Part shown: in pieces, positions 7,944-62,005 of the stretch | Layout of the letters: each line of letters starts with the position of its first letter | Position numbering within the stretch: position 1 is the first letter of the stretch | IMG/VR virus record: IMGVR_UViG_3300025379_000010 | Location: 1 to 62,005 of that record | DNA from: a virus | Strand: one strand, 5' to 3' | DNA: 62,005 nucleotides | Position numbers and translations under genes: made by a program | Notes under the pieces: model-generated | Seen by the model: only the letters and a program-made list of their open reading frames with translations | Database searches by the model: none | What the model was told of the DNA's origin: nothing

Positions 7944-9272
7944 ATGGCCGATACATCAAACTATCAATCATTTGCAAACATTACGGCAGTTCCACAAGGT
8001 CTTGTTCCAAGTGCAGGCAATGGCATCAGCCCAGGCGGTGTTCCTAGTACAACTCAGTATTCGATGGCGGCTGCTGGTGTTGTTATGAATAGTGTCAGCA
8101 ATATATCTTCTCCTATTTCAGATGCGGCTTTATCTGGAAGTGCTACATTCAACCCATCTACAAACCCATTAGATACGGGCGACAATAGCAACTCTAATCC
8201 TGCACAAAAAACAGCAACTACACAACAAGCTACTTCTGGTGCTTATGCGATTTCTTATCCTGGAGATTTGCCAAAATATTATATGACACTTGGCGTCTAT
8301 GATTATGTTCGACAAAAACCTTTAGAATCTACATTGGTAACTCCAAAGTACACTATTGCTTTGCCTCTTCCTGATGGTGAAGGACTAACAGACAATACAA
8401 GTACACAGTGGAATGATAGTTCTTTGGGTCATTGGGGTAATGCTCTAGAAAACTCAAACGCAATACAAAGTGTTTTAAGGAACTTTCTTGGCAACAAAAA
8501 CGCTTCTGCGCCAGATAATGACTCAGCAAAAACCATGATATCCGATTTAGGAGGTGATGCTCTATTATACATCGCAGATAGTTTTGCTAAAAATGCTTCT
8601 GCTGAAATGGCTGGCACAATAGAATCTGCAACTGGTTTGGCACCAAACCCAGCACTTGCTATGACGTTCAAGCAAGTTGATTTCAGAAAGTTTCAGTTTT
8701 CTTGGCTACTGTCTGCTAGAAATAATGCAGAAACAGATATTATCAAAAATATTGTTGTTGCCCTAAAACAAGCACAGTTGCCAAACTTTACTAAAGGGTC
8801 AAGTCTGATCTTTCAGTATCCAAATATCGTTCAGCCTGCCTTTTTTCCTAAAAATGCACAGAACTATATGACAGACTTCAAGCCTTGTGTTATCACTGCG
8901 GTTAATGTTAGATATTCGCCTGCCTCCAAATCACCTTCATTTTATAGCACTACAGGAGCACCTGTGTTTGTGGAGTTGTCTATCGCATTAGAAGAAATGC
9001 AGATCAGATTGCCAGGCGATTACCAGCTGGTAAACCAGTCTAACACAAGTCCAGTAACAGCTAAAGCAAGTCAAGGTGCGCAGACAGGGCTTGAAATACT
9101 AGGCATATCAGCAAGAGGCATTACGCCACCAACATCGGGCAATAAAAACACAAAACCAACAGATCCTGGTGCATCTGACGCGCAACAGCCAGGAATGACT
9201 TCTGCACATCAAGCGGCAGAGGCTGCCCGCGCCAAAGGACAGAGTGGTTATGAACCTGTACATGGTGGTTAA
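7944..9272 (+). CDS. 48: Baseplate tail-tube cap, gp48-like
   Basis: 442 residues from ATG 7944 (MADTSNYQSF), which has an AGGGAAC ribosome site. A GTG 27 nt earlier would start almost at the promoter's transcription start and is rejected. A low-complexity N-terminal third is followed by YYMTLGVYDYVRQKPLES, IALPLPDGEGLTD and a C-terminal FKQVDFRKFQFSWLLSARN...LIFQYPNIVQPAFFP domain. These resemble the gp48/gp54 tube-cap families. gp48 sits on the hub as an adaptor at the base of the tail tube. The Pro/Gln/Gly tail is probably disordered. It is the first gene of the plus-strand baseplate run. Confidence 0.66.
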   Translation: MADTSNYQSFANITAVPQGLVPSAGNGISPGGVPSTTQYSMAAAGVVMNSVSNISSPISDAALSGSATFNPSTNPLDTGDNSNSNPAQKTATTQQATSGAYAISYPGDLPKYYMTLGVYDYVRQKPLESTLVTPKYTIALPLPDGEGLTDNTSTQWNDSSLGHWGNALENSNAIQSVLRNFLGNKNASAPDNDSAKTMISDLGGDALLYIADSFAKNASAEMAGTIESATGLAPNPALAMTFKQVDFRKFQFSWLLSARNNAETDIIKNIVVALKQAQLPNFTKGSSLIFQYPNIVQPAFFPKNAQNYMTDFKPCVITAVNVRYSPASKSPSFYSTTGAPVFVELSIALEEMQIRLPGDYQLVNQSNTSPVTAKASQGAQTGLEILGISARGITPPTSGNKNTKPTDPGASDAQQPGMTSAHQAAEAARAKGQSGYEPVHGG

Positions 9273-9330
9273 ATGACAAAAATGAAAACGATTAATAAAA
9301 TAACAAGCAAACGCATTTTAAGAGCCAAAC

Positions 9331-10278
9331 ATGACACAATACTTTAAGAAGTTTCCCGTAATCAACTACAATGGTAGCCCAGCTATCAACTTGATGTCGC
9401 GTGTCAACATGTCCAAGCTAGCCTTAGACAACCTACAGTCATATTATGATTATACCATTCCAGACAACACAAGACCAGACAATCTATCTTATGATTACTA
9501 TGGCGATCCAGATTATGTATGGCTAATCTCTTTAGCAAATCAGATCACAGATCCATATTATGACTTTCCTCTCACTGATACAAACTTAAATCAGTTTATC
9601 ATTCAAAAATATGGTTCGGTCAGCTTCGCGCAAAGTTACATTCAATACTTCCAGACAAACTGGGCAACAGATAGTTCTATCATATCACCCACAGAGTTTA
9701 ACTTGTTGTCGACAAGTTTTCAGAAATACTGGTCACCAAACTTAGATTATAACAACAACATCTACGAGTATGTGCGCAAACAAGAAGATTGGATTGTATC
9801 AACAAACATGATCCAACAGCTTCAGGTTTCTTATTCAAATGAAATAACCACAGAAGGTGGATTGGTCATTGACACAGAGAGTGGATATGACATGACAGGA
9901 CCAGAAGGCGTTAACACTATTTCATTCAACGTGGGTGAGACTGTTCAGCAGAATGGTTACACAATAGGTACCGTTGTATATGCCAATACTTCAGAGATGA
10001 CAATCCAACACATCTCTGGTCAAGTAGTGGGCAACACTTCTATCTATGGTGCAACAACTGGACCAATCACAGGGTTCTACTCAAACGCATCTGCAACTGT
10101 TTCTTCAGTTACAACAGTTGCAACAAATATTCCAACAAATGAATGGTATTATTGGACACCAGTAACCGCATATGATGTTGAGACTTCGAAGAACACATCA
10201 AACAAGAGCATCAATCTTCTAGACAATAGATATGCAATCCAAGCAACACAACAACTTAAAGACCTATTGCTGACATAA
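9331..10278 (+). CDS. 53: Baseplate wedge protein gp53
   Basis: 315 residues. The N-terminal ~165 residues match the gp53 family: FKKFPVINYNG, then RPDNLSYDYYGDPDYVWLI and ITDPYYDFPL. gp53 links baseplate wedges around the hub. T4 gp53 is 196 residues. The extra part, about residues 190-250, is a beta-rich insert (VGETVQQNGYTIGTVVYANT, VVGNTSIYGATTGPITGF) of the same kind found in gp7 and gp8 here. The last residues (NKSINLLDNRYAIQATQQLK) return to a gp53-like end. The stop overlaps the next start by one base (TAATG). Confidence 0.82.
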   Translation: MTQYFKKFPVINYNGSPAINLMSRVNMSKLALDNLQSYYDYTIPDNTRPDNLSYDYYGDPDYVWLISLANQITDPYYDFPLTDTNLNQFIIQKYGSVSFAQSYIQYFQTNWATDSSIISPTEFNLLSTSFQKYWSPNLDYNNNIYEYVRKQEDWIVSTNMIQQLQVSYSNEITTEGGLVIDTESGYDMTGPEGVNTISFNVGETVQQNGYTIGTVVYANTSEMTIQHISGQVVGNTSIYGATTGPITGFYSNASATVSSVTTVATNIPTNEWYYWTPVTAYDVETSKNTSNKSINLLDNRYAIQATQQLKDLLLT

Positions 10279-29599: not shown

Positions 29600-30301
29600 A
29601 TGGTTGTTGCATATACATACTTGATAGGTTGGAAAGAACTTGATACCTGGTATTATGGTATAAGATACGCTAAAGGATGCAATGTCAGTGAGCTGTGGAA
29701 AACCTATTTCACGTCATCAAAGCATGTACTATCATTTTGTCAAAAAAATGGTGCACCAAACGTAATACAAATAAGAAAGACTTTCAGCAATATTGATTCT
29801 GCTAGGAAATGGGAAAATAAAGTATTAAAAAGAATGAATGTTATTAATCGTGACAATTTTTTAAACAAAACAGATAATATATCGATCGATCCATTATGCA
29901 GCCGACACTTTGGAAATGATAACTGGATGAGAAATCAAAATTGGAATGTTGCCGCCGGCGGCAGAAAACATCCTCGTTTAGACAAATTACATACATCCGA
30001 ATCTAAAAAAAGAATAAGCGAATCTCTAAAAGGAAGTAATAATCCTAATTTTGGCAAAAATCAATCAGAAGAGCATAAACATAAAAGATCAATTTCTATG
30101 ATTGGCAAAAATCTGGGTAAAACTAGAACAGAAGAACAAAAATTGAAATTGAAAAATAGAAAATCTGCATATAGTATGGGTTACGTTCGTCCTAAAGAAG
30201 AATGTGTATATTGTCACGTAATGGTGGATGCGCCAAATATGACTAGATGGCACGGTGACAAATGCAAACACAACTATAATAAAATATCGGTAAAAGGATA
30301 A
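29600..30301 (+). CDS. GIY-YIG homing endonuclease (Seg-like)
   Basis: 233 residues. The nuclease motif is YTYLIGWKELDTWYYGIRYA, a GIY-YIG variant close to that of the 41247 protein. RKTFSNIDSARKWENKVLKR follows, with the catalytic-type Glu. The middle has NUMOD3-like DNA-binding repeats (SESKKRISESLKGSNNPNFG, KNQSEEHKHKRS). A Cys/His cluster ends the protein (CVYCHVMVDAPNMTRWHGDK), probably a zinc finger. Such enzymes cut cognate phage genomes and spread by recombination. It has its own late promoter, and sits between two intact structural genes. Confidence 0.85.
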   Translation: MVVAYTYLIGWKELDTWYYGIRYAKGCNVSELWKTYFTSSKHVLSFCQKNGAPNVIQIRKTFSNIDSARKWENKVLKRMNVINRDNFLNKTDNISIDPLCSRHFGNDNWMRNQNWNVAAGGRKHPRLDKLHTSESKKRISESLKGSNNPNFGKNQSEEHKHKRSISMIGKNLGKTRTEEQKLKLKNRKSAYSMGYVRPKEECVYCHVMVDAPNMTRWHGDKCKHNYNKISVKG

Positions 30302-34230: not shown

Positions 34231-34953
34231 ATGCAGAAATATGGTTTCATTTATGTTTGGTTTGATATTAAACACAAGCGATATTATATAGGAAGACATT
34301 GGGGTTATGTTGATGATGGATATGTGTGTTCATCAAATATAATGAGAGATGCATACAGAAGAAGAAACCAAGATTTCAAACGGCGAATTGTATCTTATGT
34401 TTATACATCTAAAGAAGATTTGATTATTGAAGAGCAGAGATGGCTTGATATGATCAAAAAAGAAGAACTGGGTGTTAGATACTATAATAAAACCAAATCT
34501 GCCACAACACCATCTACGCTTGGATTCAAACATTCTGAAGAATCAAAAATAAAAAGTAGAATATCTAATATTGGCAAAAAAAGATCAGACAAGACAAGAC
34601 AAGCGAATAGATTAGCATCACTGAGACAATTTTCTGATCCAGAACAAAGAAGTAAACTGAGCACTAGTGTAAAGAAATTATGGGAAAATCCTGATTACAG
34701 ACAAAAAGTTTCAGATGCGCACAAGGGCAAACCTTCTTCTAGAAAGGGCAAAATCCACACAGAAGAAACAAAACAGAAGTTGCGCGATAAAAGAAAAATA
34801 CAAGCGCCTATGTCCGAAGAAGCACGAGAAAAAATAAGACAATACAACTCAAACGCGATTTGGATAACAAATGATAATATAAATAAAAAGATACATAAAG
34901 ATGCTGATATTCCTATGGGATTTCGCAGAGGCAAAGTTAGAGTGAATAAATAA
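34231..34953 (+). CDS. GIY-YIG homing endonuclease
   Basis: 240 residues. The nuclease domain begins YGFIYVWFDIKHKRYYIGRH (GIY-YIG type). DFKRRIVSYVYTSKEDLIIE and EEQRWLDMIKKEELGVRYYN give the conserved Arg and Glu region. NUMOD-like basic repeats follow (GFKHSEESKIKSRISNIGKK, IHTEETKQKLRDKRK). The protein ends in a basic domain with AIWITNDNINKKIHKDADIP, a helix-turn-helix-like tail common in these enzymes. The first 90 residues closely match those of the 42638 protein. It is inserted directly after a fibre gene and carries its own late promoter. Confidence 0.88.
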   Translation: MQKYGFIYVWFDIKHKRYYIGRHWGYVDDGYVCSSNIMRDAYRRRNQDFKRRIVSYVYTSKEDLIIEEQRWLDMIKKEELGVRYYNKTKSATTPSTLGFKHSEESKIKSRISNIGKKRSDKTRQANRLASLRQFSDPEQRSKLSTSVKKLWENPDYRQKVSDAHKGKPSSRKGKIHTEETKQKLRDKRKIQAPMSEEAREKIRQYNSNAIWITNDNINKKIHKDADIPMGFRRGKVRVNK

Positions 34954-41207: not shown

Positions 41208-41250
41208 CAAATACTATCTACTCAGAAGACTTGGCGCTCCTGTTATATGA
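41179..41250 (+). pseudogene. 13: Truncated 5' end of neck gene gp13, interrupted by a homing endonuclease
   Basis: Twenty-three codons, [20 protein letters not shown] followed by PVI-stop. They align residue for residue with the start of the intact gp13 at 41848 (MSIPTNRDEFKYYILRRLGA, PVI). The stop TGA overlaps the endonuclease ATG at 41247 (ATGA). The old gene start was therefore cut at Gly-Ala-Pro-Val-Ile, and a new, synonymously different start lies on the far side of the endonuclease. Confidence 0.88.
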
Positions 41251-41864
41251 CAACACCATATACATACTTACTACATCATATACCGACAAACATGTTTTAT
41301 TATGGCGTAAGATATAAAGAAGGATGTCATCCTGAAGATTTCTGGAAAAATTACTTCACATCTTCTAATGTCGTTAAATCACTAAGAAAAGAATATGGCG
41401 ACGATTCTTTTGAGTTCGAGATAAGAAAAACGTTCAAAGATGCTAAAGATTCTATAGAATGGGAACATAAAGTTTTAAGAAGATTGAAAATTAGAGAAAC
41501 CAATAATGTGTGGTTAAACAAACACGACGGTCGTGCTGTCATCTTTACAGAAGAAGTTAAAAGCAATATAAGTAAAACCAGAACAGGACAACACGTAGGT
41601 GAAAAGAATCCTATGTATGGAAGAAAAAGACCAGATACTGTAGAGTTCAATAAAAGACCGGACATAATAGAAAAAAGAAGACAAAAAGCACTGACCAACA
41701 ATCCTATGAAAGGAACAAAATGGTCAGAGGAAAGAAAACGTAAAATGTCTGAAAGAATGTCTGGCGTTAATAATCCTATGCACGGAAAGATTAGACCAGA
41801 AGTTGGTGAAAACAACAAGAAGTATAAGACAAAGAGGAATATAGAAAATGTCAATACCTACTAA
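41247..41864 (+). CDS. GIY-YIG homing endonuclease inserted in gp13
   Basis: 205 residues. The nuclease domain is YTYLLHHIPTNMFYYGVRYK, then FWKNYFTSSNVVKSLRKEYG, FEIRKTFKDAKDSIEWEHKV. It is related to the 29600 enzyme. NUMOD3-type repeats follow (NISKTRTGQHVGEKNPMYGR, MSERMSGVNNPMHGK). The start is coupled (ATGA) to the truncated gp13 start, and the 3' end overlaps the ATG of intact gp13 by 17 nt. The enzyme thus sits between the broken and the restored copy of the gp13 5' end, and its likely target is the Gly-Ala-Pro-Val coding sequence. Confidence 0.87.
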   Translation: MTTPYTYLLHHIPTNMFYYGVRYKEGCHPEDFWKNYFTSSNVVKSLRKEYGDDSFEFEIRKTFKDAKDSIEWEHKVLRRLKIRETNNVWLNKHDGRAVIFTEEVKSNISKTRTGQHVGEKNPMYGRKRPDTVEFNKRPDIIEKRRQKALTNNPMKGTKWSEERKRKMSERMSGVNNPMHGKIRPEVGENNKKYKTKRNIENVNTY

Positions 41865-42637: not shown

Positions 42638-43297
42638 ATGAAGTATGGTTTCGTTTACATTTGGTTTGATCGTAAGCACAAAAGATATTACATTGGTTCT
42701 CATTGGGGAACCGAAGATGATGGATATATCTGTTCTTCAACTTGGATGAGAAACTCCTACAATAGGAGATACGAAGACTTCAAAAGAAGAATAATCTCAC
42801 GCATCTATACCAATAGACAAGACCTTCTAGATGAAGAATATCGTTGGCTTTCTATGATAAAGAAAGAAGAGTTGAAAACACGATATTATAACTTTTCTAA
42901 TCATAGACAAGGTCACTGGACTGAAGGCAAAACAACAACCACAAAGCAGCGCATTTCTGAAAAAACCAAAGAAGCAATGCAAAGATCAGAAGTTCGCGAA
43001 AAGTATCTGAAAGGTTTGTCTATTCGTGATAATGGATCTTCAAGACCTGAAGTGAGAGATAAAAGAAGATTGTCTATGATAGGCAAAAACAAGGGTAAAG
43101 TTCGCACCGAAGCAGAGAAAGCGCATCTTAGAGAAATAAATACTGGCAAAAAGATGTCAGAAGAAACAAAGAGTAAGATAGCAGCCAAGTCTTATTTCAA
43201 AGTTGACAAGTGTATTCATTGTGGAACAGAAGCAAATGTAGCAACTTTAGGTAGGTATCATAATGGTAGATGTAAATATATTGCAGCACATTACTGA
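42638..43297 (+). CDS. GIY-YIG homing endonuclease
   Basis: 219 residues. The nuclease start YGFVYIWFDRKHKRYYIGSH closely matches the 34231 enzyme, as do DFKRRIISRIYTNRQDLLDE and RWLSMIKKEELKTRYYNFSN. NUMOD-like repeats cover about 100-195. The end has a CIHCGTEANVATLGRYHNGR Cys/His cluster, like that of the 29600 enzyme rather than the 34231 one, so C-terminal DNA-binding parts look exchangeable. It lies between gp13 and gp14 and has its own late promoter. Confidence 0.88.
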   Translation: MKYGFVYIWFDRKHKRYYIGSHWGTEDDGYICSSTWMRNSYNRRYEDFKRRIISRIYTNRQDLLDEEYRWLSMIKKEELKTRYYNFSNHRQGHWTEGKTTTTKQRISEKTKEAMQRSEVREKYLKGLSIRDNGSSRPEVRDKRRLSMIGKNKGKVRTEAEKAHLREINTGKKMSEETKSKIAAKSYFKVDKCIHCGTEANVATLGRYHNGRCKYIAAHY

Positions 43298-43368: not shown

Positions 43369-44088
43369 TTGCCCACCAACTTCTTCTTCAGGAACAGCGA
43401 TTACAATCCTGAGCAGAATCTGCTACAGAATCTAGCAGACGAAATGATTCAGATTTTTGGTATCGATTGCTATTATCTTCCGAGAACAACAAACTATATT
43501 GATAAGTTATTTGATGAAGCACCAACGTCTTCATTCAACGTGGCTATTCCACTTGAAATGTATATTAATGATTATGAAGGTTTCCAAGGTGAAGGCGATC
43601 TACTCAGCAAGTTCGGGCTAAACGTAGCAGACAAACTTACACTATCGGTGAGTCGTCGTAGGTTCGCACAAGACATCGGTAGCATATACAACTTGATTCG
43701 CCCACAAGAAGGTGATCTTGTTTACTTTCCATTCACAACTGGTATTTTTGAAATCAAGTTCGTTGAACATGAAAGATCCTTCTACCAGACTGGATCGCTA
43801 CAATACTTTGAGTTGCAGCTAGAGAAGTTCAACTACGATTCGGAACAGTTCAACACTGGCATCGCAAATATCGATTCGATCCAGCAGAACTATTCAGTGG
43901 CAGACAGTAACTTCTGGTATCTCACCGAAGCAAGTTACGATCTTATTACCGAAGCTGGTTATGATATTGTCAACGAAACTTTTGTTCTAGATGAAATCGA
44001 TCCGACAACACAGAATGAAGAGTTTGTAGCTTTGGCAAATACCTTCGTGGACTGGTCGGTTACTAATCCATTTGGGAACGACATTTAG
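43369..44088 (+). CDS. 14: Neck protein gp14
   Basis: 239 residues from TTG 43369; no ATG fits, and AAAGGA lies 9 nt upstream. Matches to T4 gp14 include LADEMIQIFGIDCYYLPRTT, EMYINDYEGFQGEGDLLSKF, GLNVADKLTLSVSRRRFAQD and PQEGDLVYFPFTTGIFEIKF. gp14 completes the neck with gp13 and allows tail joining. The length is close to that of T4 gp14 (256). Its TAG stop overlaps the TAA stop of the minus-strand endonuclease, so there is no spacer between them. Confidence 0.88.
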   Translation: MPTNFFFRNSDYNPEQNLLQNLADEMIQIFGIDCYYLPRTTNYIDKLFDEAPTSSFNVAIPLEMYINDYEGFQGEGDLLSKFGLNVADKLTLSVSRRRFAQDIGSIYNLIRPQEGDLVYFPFTTGIFEIKFVEHERSFYQTGSLQYFELQLEKFNYDSEQFNTGIANIDSIQQNYSVADSNFWYLTEASYDLITEAGYDIVNETFVLDEIDPTTQNEEFVALANTFVDWSVTNPFGNDI

Positions 44089-44813
44089 ATTTTGTGCTTT
44101 CTAGCAAAGTGCATAGGAAAGCCACATCTGGCCATTTCTTTTCTACACAAAACACAAGAGACTCTATGTTTGTTTCTATCTGCCGAAGCTGCTTTCCATT
44201 CGTCTGTGCATCTTGCCTTTGCTTTTTCTGACAAACGTTCGCGTAGTTCTTGATTATTCATTGCTTCTTTTGTTTCTATAGATATACTATTCTTTTCGTC
44301 ATTTGTTCTAGAAACTTTATATCTATCGTTTTCCTCTCGTGATTTGGGATTTACTCTATATTTCATAAATCTTTTTCTGCAATTTTCCTTTTCTTCTTCT
44401 GATTTATTAGACCATCTGATTGAAGCTTCGCTTGACATCTTAGACAATCTTTCCGCAGTAAAACTATTTCTTTGGTTTTGTTTTGTTTTTTCTGAAAGTT
44501 TATAACCACCAGAATTTCTCCAACGAATGTTGGATATCGCTTCATTGATATACATAGGATTTACATCTACATTGAAGTGTTTGTGTAGATAAGATTCGTG
44601 ATTTATAGCAGATTCTCTTGTATCAAATATTTTTATGATTTTGGTTTTGAAAAATGAAGGATTTCGCTTCATCTCTTCAATCCAAACTTTCTTGTGTTTT
44701 TTTGATGTAACGGTTCCATGATATCCTCTATTGATTTTGGATATCGTGCTGTAACCGATATAGAACGGAGGAAGTTTGTTGCCAATATAAATAGTAATAT
44801 ATGTACAATACAT
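44085..44813 (-). CDS. GIY-YIG-type homing endonuclease between gp14 and gp15 (minus strand)
   Basis: 242 residues from the ATG at 44813, which has a TAGGAG ribosome site; an in-frame ATG at 44861 would be almost at the transcription start and is not favoured. The start is CTYITIYIGNKLPPFYIGYS, a divergent GIY-YIG core. NUMOD-like basic repeats follow, and a C-terminal C2H2 finger (C-x2-C-x12-H-x4-H: VLCRKEMARCGFPMHFARKH). Its stop overlaps the gp14 stop, and its leader overlaps the gp15 5' end on the other strand. It is expressed from the late promoter at 44877-44884. Confidence 0.8.
   Translation of the reverse strand: MYCTYITIYIGNKLPPFYIGYSTISKINRGYHGTVTSKKHKKVWIEEMKRNPSFFKTKIIKIFDTRESAINHESYLHKHFNVDVNPMYINEAISNIRWRNSGGYKLSEKTKQNQRNSFTAERLSKMSSEASIRWSNKSEEEKENCRKRFMKYRVNPKSREENDRYKVSRTNDEKNSISIETKEAMNNQELRERLSEKAKARCTDEWKAASADRNKHRVSCVLCRKEMARCGFPMHFARKHKI
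44786..44793 (+). promoter_or_regulatory. Late promoter for gp15
   Basis: A perfect TATAAATA inside the 5' end of the minus-strand endonuclease gene, 56 nt upstream of the gp15 ATG at 44842. Confidence 0.75.
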
Positions 44814-60130: not shown

Positions 60131-60910
60131 ATGCCTACCAGAAAATATGGTTACATTAAAGACCCATATGATCCTAGAGACTGGAAGTTTAGTGCGATTC
60201 ATGCTCCTAAAGCTGCACCTTTACCAGATAAGGTCAGTCTTCGAAGCAAGTTTAAAGAAAAGCCATACGATCAAGGCGAACTAGGTTCTTGTTCTGCACA
60301 AGCAGCCACAGCAGCCTTTACCTTTGTTCATGATGGTGGTCCATATTCAAGACTAGCACTTTATTATCAAGAGCGAGTTCTAGAAGGCACAGTCGAGCAT
60401 GACTCTGGTGCATTTCTTCGCGATGCAATCAAGGTTCTAAATCTACAAGGTGTTGGTCTAGAAAAAGATTGGCCATACGATATCTCAAAGTTCGCTGTTG
60501 CTCCTCCTGCAATCGAAGTTCAAGAAGCATTGGAGAACAAGATTTCTGCTTACTCATCTCTAGCAGATGGTAGTGGTATCGAATATCGTCAATGTCTATC
60601 TGATGGATTCCCATTCATTATTGGCATTCAAATCTATCAAGACTTTGAATCGCCAGAAGTTGCACAATCTGGTGTTATTTCAATGCCAGAATACTGGACA
60701 CAGTGCTTAGGTGGTCATGCTGTTACAGTCATTGGTTATGATAATAACTTTGATCCTAGTGCGAATGGTGCAGATGGTAAAGTAGAACCATACTACGAAG
60801 TACGCAACTCTTGGGGAACAGACTGGGGCGACGATGGCCACTTCTGGATTCCAGCAAGATATCTAGAAGATCCCAAGTTAGCTACAGACGCTTGGACAAT
60901 CCGTAAATAA
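60131..60910 (+). CDS. Papain-like (C1) cysteine protease
   Basis: 259 residues. All C1 active-site parts are visible: the oxyanion Gln48 and Cys54 in YDQGELGSCSAQAATAAF, His196 in CLGGHAVTVIGYD, and Asn226 in VRNSWGTDWGDDGHFWIP. No signal peptide or propeptide is apparent; the short N-terminus (YGYIKDPYDPRDWKF) resembles the start of bacterial C1 proteases. Papain-fold enzymes are unusual in T4-like phages. The gene sits 14 nt after a virion protein gene with an AAAAGGAAAG ribosome site, so it is probably a late product: a virion-processing protease or one aimed at host proteins. No inactivating change is seen. Confidence 0.88.
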   Translation: MPTRKYGYIKDPYDPRDWKFSAIHAPKAAPLPDKVSLRSKFKEKPYDQGELGSCSAQAATAAFTFVHDGGPYSRLALYYQERVLEGTVEHDSGAFLRDAIKVLNLQGVGLEKDWPYDISKFAVAPPAIEVQEALENKISAYSSLADGSGIEYRQCLSDGFPFIIGIQIYQDFESPEVAQSGVISMPEYWTQCLGGHAVTVIGYDNNFDPSANGADGKVEPYYEVRNSWGTDWGDDGHFWIPARYLEDPKLATDAWTIRK

Positions 60911-60945: not shown

Positions 60946-60948
60946 CTT

Positions 60949-61023
60949 TGGATTCCCGGGTTGGCCCCGCCCCAACATTAACGCCTTCAAAGGGCGTGGT
61001 CCTACTCATTAGACGACCGGGAA
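60949..61023 (-). tRNA. tRNA-Gln (anticodon UUG), atypical loops
   Basis: 75 nt. The acceptor stem TTCCCGG/CCGGGAA is perfect, and CCA is encoded after discriminator T. The anticodon stem ACGCC/GGCGT has loop CTTTGAA. The D stem GTCT/GGAC pairs. The T stem GTTGG/CCAAC pairs, but the T loop is GGCGGGG instead of TTCRANY, and the D loop AATGAGTA lacks the GG pair. Both halves of the usual D-T loop contact are thus missing. It may be functional but unusual, or decaying. Confidence 0.72.
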
Positions 61024-61053
61024 TCAAAAGAGCATTGCGCTCTACTTATTATT

Positions 61054-61139
61054 TGGTACGGCTGGTGGGACTCGAACCCACACTAACAAAGTTAACCGAA
61101 GCTTAAATCCGGCGGGTCTACCAATTCCCCCACGCCCGC
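61054..61139 (-). tRNA. tRNA-Leu (anticodon UAA)
   Basis: An 86-nt class II tRNA. The anticodon stem CCGGA/TTCGG has loop TTTAAGC, giving TAA. The variable arm pairs (TAAC-TTT-GTTA). The T arm GTGGG-TTCGAGT-CCCAC is canonical, and ACCA is encoded. The acceptor stem (GCGGGCG against CAGCCGT) has two adjacent mismatches and one G-U pair. It lies 30 nt upstream of tRNA-Gln on the same strand; a small AGAGC/GCTCT hairpin separates them. Confidence 0.85.
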
Positions 61140-61154
61140 ACAAACTCTCTAAAT

Positions 61155-61162
61155 CATAAATA
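61155..61162 (+). promoter_or_regulatory. Possible late promoter variant for the membrane protein
   Basis: CATAAATA, one mismatch to TATAAATA, 30 nt before the ATG at 61185; AAAAAGGGAG is the ribosome site. Confidence 0.5.
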
Positions 61163-61184
61163 ATAATAAAAAGGGAGTATAATC

Positions 61185-61547
61185 ATGTCTATCAAAGATA
61201 ACATCACTAAGTTCAACGACATGGTTGCAGTGAACCTTACAGATACAGTAGGAACCATGTGGTGTGCTTATGCGTTTGCTTTGTTGGCTCTAATCAGTCT
61301 ACCAGACGCTATTCACGCTGGGCTTGCAGCTACAATCTCATGGATCGCACAGACATTTCTTCAACTAGTTCTACTTAGTGTGATCATGGTAGGTCAAGAA
61401 GTTCAAGCCAGAAAGACAGAAGCTAGAAGCCAGCAAGATCACGAAACGATCTTGGCCGAGTTTGCTGAAATCAAAGCAATGCATGCCGAACTAACATCAC
61501 TCCATGAGGACAAAGAAGGATGTGGATACGTAGAACAAAAGCAGTAA
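61185..61547 (+). CDS. Small membrane protein with two transmembrane segments
   Basis: 120 residues. Two hydrophobic spans: MWCAYAFALLALISLPDAIH at about 25-44 and ISWIAQTFLQLVLLSVIMVG at about 50-69. The motif ISWIAQTFLQLVLLSVIMVG, Q-V-Q-A is shared by small membrane proteins of many unrelated phages, whose role is unknown. The C-terminal half is a charged helix (EVQARKTEARSQQDHETILA). A holin-type or superinfection-related role is possible. It overlaps the next gene by 28 nt. Confidence 0.65.
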   Translation: MSIKDNITKFNDMVAVNLTDTVGTMWCAYAFALLALISLPDAIHAGLAATISWIAQTFLQLVLLSVIMVGQEVQARKTEARSQQDHETILAEFAEIKAMHAELTSLHEDKEGCGYVEQKQ

Positions 61548-62005
61548 TAGTAGCACTAACACTTCTGTTCTCTGCTCCAGCACTCGCGGAAGATCAACAG
61601 ATCAATGCTGATAGACCAGGCGTAGGTATCGATGCTGACGTCATTCCACTTAAAACCTTTCAGGCTGAAGTAGGTGTTGATGGTTATGAGTTTAGAATGG
61701 CAATTGCAAAGGACTTAGAAGTATTCAAAGATAACACCAGCTTTGGTGCAAAGTATGCTATCATTTATAATCACAAGTTTGAATTATCAGCCAAGCTAGG
61801 ATATGATAATAACAATGGTGTTTTCATTGAAGTGCCATCAAAGTATATTTTTAACAAATACTTTTACTTGGGTACAGATGTTCAGATTGCTAAACATTCA
61901 CAGACATATGTGACTGAATACAACTTTACACCAACAGATACACTTACAATCATGCCTTCTGTCTACTATGACACAAAGGTCAAAACTGGCATCTATGTTT
62001 CATGG
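61520..62005 (+). CDS. Secreted, outer-membrane beta-barrel-like protein (3' end outside window)
   Basis: The frame starts at ATG 61520 inside the previous gene and is open to the window end (162 codons). The N-terminus is a clear signal peptide: basic MWIRRTK, hydrophobic AVIVALTLLFSAPALA, cleavage probably before EDQQ. The mature part (INADRPGVGIDADVIPLKTF, QAEVGVDGYEFRMAI) has alternating residues fitting transmembrane beta strands and resembles outer-membrane barrel proteins with a 'TDRP....P.G..Q.E.G' start. A phage-made periplasmic or outer-membrane protein might block superinfection or alter the envelope; this is inference. Confidence 0.68.
   Translation, partial: MWIRRTKAVIVALTLLFSAPALAEDQQINADRPGVGIDADVIPLKTFQAEVGVDGYEFRMAIAKDLEVFKDNTSFGAKYAIIYNHKFELSAKLGYDNNNGVFIEVPSKYIFNKYFYLGTDVQIAKHSQTYVTEYNFTPTDTLTIMPSVYYDTKVKTGIYVSW

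Follow-up and report, generated by a model that had tools for sequence, protein, structure and literature searches.

A predicted outer-membrane barrel gene overlapping a candidate holin gene in a T4-like phage genome fragment

Phage-encoded outer-membrane proteins include Lom of lambda and the Lc porin of phage PA-2, and the outer-membrane barrels known from phages are for the most part products of lysogenic-conversion or receptor genes. The COG4313 channel Pput2725 has been solved as a 12-strand barrel; it has an N-terminal plug, and the first ~14 residues of the channel fill the lumen (PMC4493636). In overlapped spanins of the Rz/Rz1 type an inner-membrane and then an outer-membrane product are encoded by an overlapping gene pair (PMC6139136). 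Here we describe an overlapping pair of a different kind at one end of a 62,005-nucleotide stretch of viral DNA, referred to as the window. We favour, at a probability of roughly 0.45, a late-expressed two-gene envelope unit in which a class-II-like holin and an outer-membrane barrel would act in lysis or release.

The window is a fragment of a T4-like genome whose gp23-like major head protein, portal, terminase, sheath and baseplate wedge match their respective PHROGs and all of whose close relatives are uncultivated viral contigs. The pair is located 3' of the head genes and of a papain-type peptidase gene (Table 1). This papain-family (C1) cysteine peptidase is encoded at 60131-60910, between the head genes and the pair, and is likewise found upstream of the pair in L098, on the other strand. 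The unit adjoins a tRNA gene, and in related phages it is embedded within tRNA arrays on the strand opposite to them. A further tRNA-like stretch was noted by eye at 60948-61025 (- strand), with a long acceptor-like stem (gattcccgg/ccgggaatc) and a possible anticodon TTG; ARAGORN made no call there. Near the window's opposite end, 500-778 on the - strand encodes a 93-residue protein that has two hydrophobic stretches and matches no Pfam or PHROG family.

Table 1. Coordinates in the window of the two-gene unit and its surroundings.
Feature	Position	Strand	Basis
tRNA-Leu(TAA), adjoining the two-gene unit	61054..61139	-	
T4-type late-promoter-like motif CATAAATA	61155..61162	+	30 nt before membrane-protein start
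Shine-Dalgarno-like AAGGGAG for membrane-protein gene	61171..61177	+	read from sequence
Two-span inner-membrane protein, 120 aa, DUF1003-like, candidate holin	61185..61547	+	PF06210 E=8.5e-6
Shine-Dalgarno-like GAGGA for barrel gene, inside upstream gene	61506..61510	+	read from sequence; 9 nt before ATG
Overlap of the two reading frames, 28 nt	61520..61547	+	ORF coordinates
Predicted outer-membrane beta-barrel gene, first 162 of 193 codons	61520..62005	+	L110 ortholog model and Foldseek matches
Predicted signal peptide, residues 1-23	61520..61588	+	sequence features; hydrophobic leader at matching place in every homolog
Conserved INADRPGVG segment directly before first strand	61601..61627	+	alignments; A-D-R-P-G-x-G invariant in family

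The reading frame of the barrel gene stays open up to the end of the window, where the gene is truncated. The full gene, which the first-pass annotation had named as a check, was obtained from near-identical viral contigs (L004, L003 and L007); it encodes 193 residues, is 94–96% identical over the shared 162, and has its remainder, outside the window, at L004:5487-5582. The N-terminus, MWIRRTKAVIVALTLLFSAPALA/EDQ, carries the textbook features of a Sec signal peptide (basic n-region, hydrophobic core and A-x-A, with no Cys), which bears out the signal peptide claimed earlier at the start of this frame. Judged from sequence, the frame is a real gene under purifying selection and more than a chance open reading frame, because comparison with the 83%-identical relative in L100 gave a dN of 0.10 against a dS of 0.47.

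Searches with growing alignments uncovered six divergent barrel lineages, that of the window (window/L004/L100) and five further ones with homologs at 39–54% identity: L098 (51%), L018/L099 (49%), L108/L109 (46%), L110 (44%) and L103 (39–40%). All share the leader, the invariant ADRPGxG segment and alternating strands. Relatives were found neither in 50,697 phage records nor in plasmids (queried with the L103 homolog) nor in two scans of 84,980 bacterial genomes, PDB sequence searches returned chance matches only, and the family is absent from PHROGs. An AlphaFold2 model of the L110 member, built on seven mature sequences, formed a 12-strand barrel (pLDDT 84, pTM 0.77) with the conserved N-terminal segment modelled at low confidence; with three sequences the window-lineage protein reached a pLDDT of 33 and was discarded, and the fold thus rests on the L110 ortholog. 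Among the top Foldseek matches of the L110 model were the designed barrel TMB10, KdgM and NanC (E 2e-6 to 1e-4). In addition, the inside/outside alternation over the 12 strands, taken as the mean of six members, was exceeded in none of 2000 shuffles. With a signal peptide followed by a closed meander of amphipathic strands, as modelled for the ortholog, the predicted outer-membrane beta-barrel identity is firm, and what had been called barrel-like can be named more precisely. The accompanying statement that such proteins are rare in T4-like genomes was too strong, as BFVD lists predicted outer-membrane barrels from Vibrio phage nt-1, which we take to be T4-like, and from several uncultured Caudovirales.

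The nearest sequence family is PF13557, presumably equivalent to COG4313, on the strength of one weak, collinear match, in L098 (E=0.22), which starts at profile position 1; no other barrel member matched, and at genome level there was no match at E≤1. Membership of PF13557, pursued via plasmid records, was not established. Together with the 12 strands, the conserved N-terminal stretch ahead of strand 1, which has a counterpart in Pput2725, and invariant charged residues within the strands of the family alignment, this match would suit a phage-borne porin or COG4313-like channel that changes the passage of small or hydrophobic molecules in the infected cell. We consider such an uptake channel unlikely, given that the match falls below significance, that no metabolic genes adjoin the barrel gene, and that the late timing suggested below would leave little time for uptake to be of benefit.

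The partner scores close to the curated cut-off of PF06210 (DUF1003), which is 27.4 bits: 26.3 in the window, 25.8 in L018 and 25.5 in L108, with the L098 ortholog above it at 27.8. Relatives numbered 82 in viral contigs, including at least 80 uncultivated phage contigs (L020-L089 among them); 0 of the 42 tested belonged to a PHROG, and the family has no sequence relation to any PHROG holin. Hydropathy, a positive-inside reading and the alignment predict a two-span hairpin with both ends in the cytoplasm, a periplasmic loop of ~10 residues and a charged cytoplasmic tail, which is the topology of class II holins. Among 112 proteins encoded within two positions of the DUF1003-like gene in non-T4 phages we found PG_binding_1 (6), Glyco_hydro_25 (4), PG_binding_3 (4), Rv2525c-like (2), Peptidase_M15_3 (1) and Glyco_hydro_108 (1), whereas 89 distant control genes of the same contigs included one Phage_lysozyme and no PG-binding family among the families listed, a contrast that is approximate as it compares the 25 commonest families of each list. 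Because several relatives adjoin cell-wall hydrolases, and neighbouring genes are richer than distant ones in cell-wall hydrolase and peptidoglycan-binding domains, the DUF1003-like family is put forward as a candidate holin family, and the position of several members beside endolysins in other phages points to the lysis stage. Counted against a lysis role are that in the window the pair has no neighbouring endolysin and that DUF1003 is also found in bacteria, where we know of no function for it. The T4 holin (PF11031) was not found in eight records, one of them a 175-kb T4-like contig carrying the DUF1003-like gene, and no literature linking DUF1003 with 'holin' or 'phage' was found. Several members, of a family that is itself unannotated, directly adjoin GH25, GH108, M15 or Rv2525c-like hydrolases.

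The 28-nt overlap reported in the first-pass annotation was exact, and its suggestion that the two proteins are made together gained support, since overlapping frames are conserved in four divergent tRNA-rich T4-like lineages: by 28 nt in window/L004, 28 nt in L108/L109, 22 nt in L098 and 4 nt in L099/L018. Coupled expression of the pair is likely. As the DUF1003-like partners in L098 and L108 are of a different subtype, the pairing has, going by these comparisons, survived considerable divergence. It is also found dissolved, which counts against a joint role in lysis: the barrel gene stands without an adjoining DUF1003-like gene in L110 and L103, and other T4-like phages (L019-L031) carry the DUF1003-like gene without the barrel, four such records giving no barrel match when searched.

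An overlapped pair whose inner-membrane product precedes the outer-membrane one, behind a late-promoter motif, might be read as an unconventional two-component spanin in which, as in Rz/Rz1, the inner-membrane protein engages its outer-membrane counterpart and disrupts the outer membrane. Where an i-spanin has a single span and a periplasmic domain, the partner has two spans joined by a very short periplasmic loop. The window-lineage signal peptide has no Cys for the lipobox of an o-spanin, and its product is a barrel, not a lipoprotein. With a short loop and a missing lipobox a spanin-type bridge is disfavoured, and we regard this explanation as very improbable. Since a loop of ~10 residues cannot span the periplasm, the coupling would most likely serve timing and stoichiometry rather than a spanin-like bridge.

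The motif upstream of the unit, CATAAATA, departs at its first position from the T4 late-promoter consensus TATAAATA, which counts against the lysis reading; the first T of T4-like late promoters is variable (PMC1524935). Counts of the consensus in the window are 17 on the + strand and 3 on the - strand; the late genes that it precedes include gp23 and the tail sheath. At 10 of 13 T4-like loci the DUF1003-like gene has NATAAATA no more than 60 nt upstream, compared to 0.18 expected from same-strand windows, although these loci are related and their upstream regions AT-rich so that the nominal probability is overstated. CATAAATA is retained in L016 despite synonymous divergence, and L018 has a perfect TATAAATA at -27. 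In L108, TATAAATA lies ahead of a GIY-YIG-like ORF (8921-9696) which precedes the two-span gene and looks like an insertion into the unit. From these upstream motifs the two-gene unit looks late-expressed. The window also has ORFs that, by visual inspection of their starts, resemble GIY-YIG homing endonucleases, at 29600-30298, 34231-34950, 41247-41861 and 42638-43294 (+) and at 44088-44813 (-); a TATAAATA motif stands 30-38 nt before three of them (29600, 34231 and 42638).

Timing bears directly on the purpose proposed in the first-pass annotation, namely that the pair may alter the envelope, for instance so as to exclude other phages. The exported barrel coupled to a two-span protein, now seen to be conserved, stood up; the exclusion purpose did not find support, as the unit looks late and the partner family adjoins endolysins in other phages. 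In superinfection exclusion or receptor masking the barrel would block adsorption or DNA entry, or prevent progeny from adhering to debris, and the membrane protein would assist from the inner membrane. The positive evidence for this is the outer-membrane barrel fold; the partner-less barrel genes in L110 (just before terminase) and L103 resemble cargo genes, and known phage porins and Lom-type proteins alter the host surface. The T4 exclusion genes imm and sp are early, whereas the present unit carries a late-promoter motif, and the partner family is associated with endolysin genes. Exclusion is consequently less likely; we hold it to be rather unlikely overall, and exclusion of the T4 type was ranked low on the promoter evidence.

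In the late envelope unit that we favour, both proteins would be produced together late in infection from one overlapping unit. The two-span protein would act as a class-II-like holin, its hairpin in the inner membrane with N and C termini inside and its charged tail in the cytoplasm. As to the exact role of the barrel, we infer that it inserts into the outer membrane late and weakens it or alters its permeability for lysis and release. An end-of-infection lysis role for the unit remains tentative, at somewhat less than even odds. That the holin-coupled 12-strand barrel constitutes an undescribed outer-membrane lysis step, permeabilising or destabilising the outer membrane instead of or beside spanins, is a good deal more doubtful. 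If true, a late, translationally coupled barrel and candidate holin would tie outer-membrane barrels to the lysis stage. The unit would then allow a straightforward test of how the outer membrane is breached by phages that lack recognised spanins, and the DUF1003-like proteins, spread over those at least 80 uncultivated phage contigs and outside any PHROG, form a testable candidate holin family.

Compared with known systems, the DUF1003-like protein and its locus resemble class II holins in the two-span hairpin with its short periplasmic loop and charged tail, in having several relatives that lie beside endolysins in other phages, and in the late-promoter motif, and differ in lacking a sequence relation to any PHROG holin, the holin function being putative. 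The pair shares with overlapped spanins (Rz/Rz1 type, PMC6139136) the overlap of an inner-membrane and an outer-membrane gene, but has a barrel in place of a lipoprotein and no long periplasmic domain. KdgM and NanC porins are, like the modelled phage barrel, 12-strand monomeric outer-membrane barrels and were among its best Foldseek matches (TM 0.5-0.55); they are, however, only 11–12% identical to the phage barrel, which has no Pfam match, and KdgM-family members are sugar uptake channels. With the COG4313/PF13557 channel Pput2725 the barrel shares 12 strands, a conserved segment before strand 1 and a weak collinear profile match that is not significant, whereas at ~170 mature residues it is smaller than those 30–34 kDa proteins and has a holin-like partner. 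Lom, the PA-2 Lc porin and the BFVD (nt-1) barrels are likewise exported outer-membrane barrels encoded by phage genes, yet no sequence relation to them was detected and they act in lysogeny. The present barrel gene, in contrast to Lom and Lc, belongs to a T4-like phage, follows a late-promoter motif and is coupled to a DUF1003-like gene.
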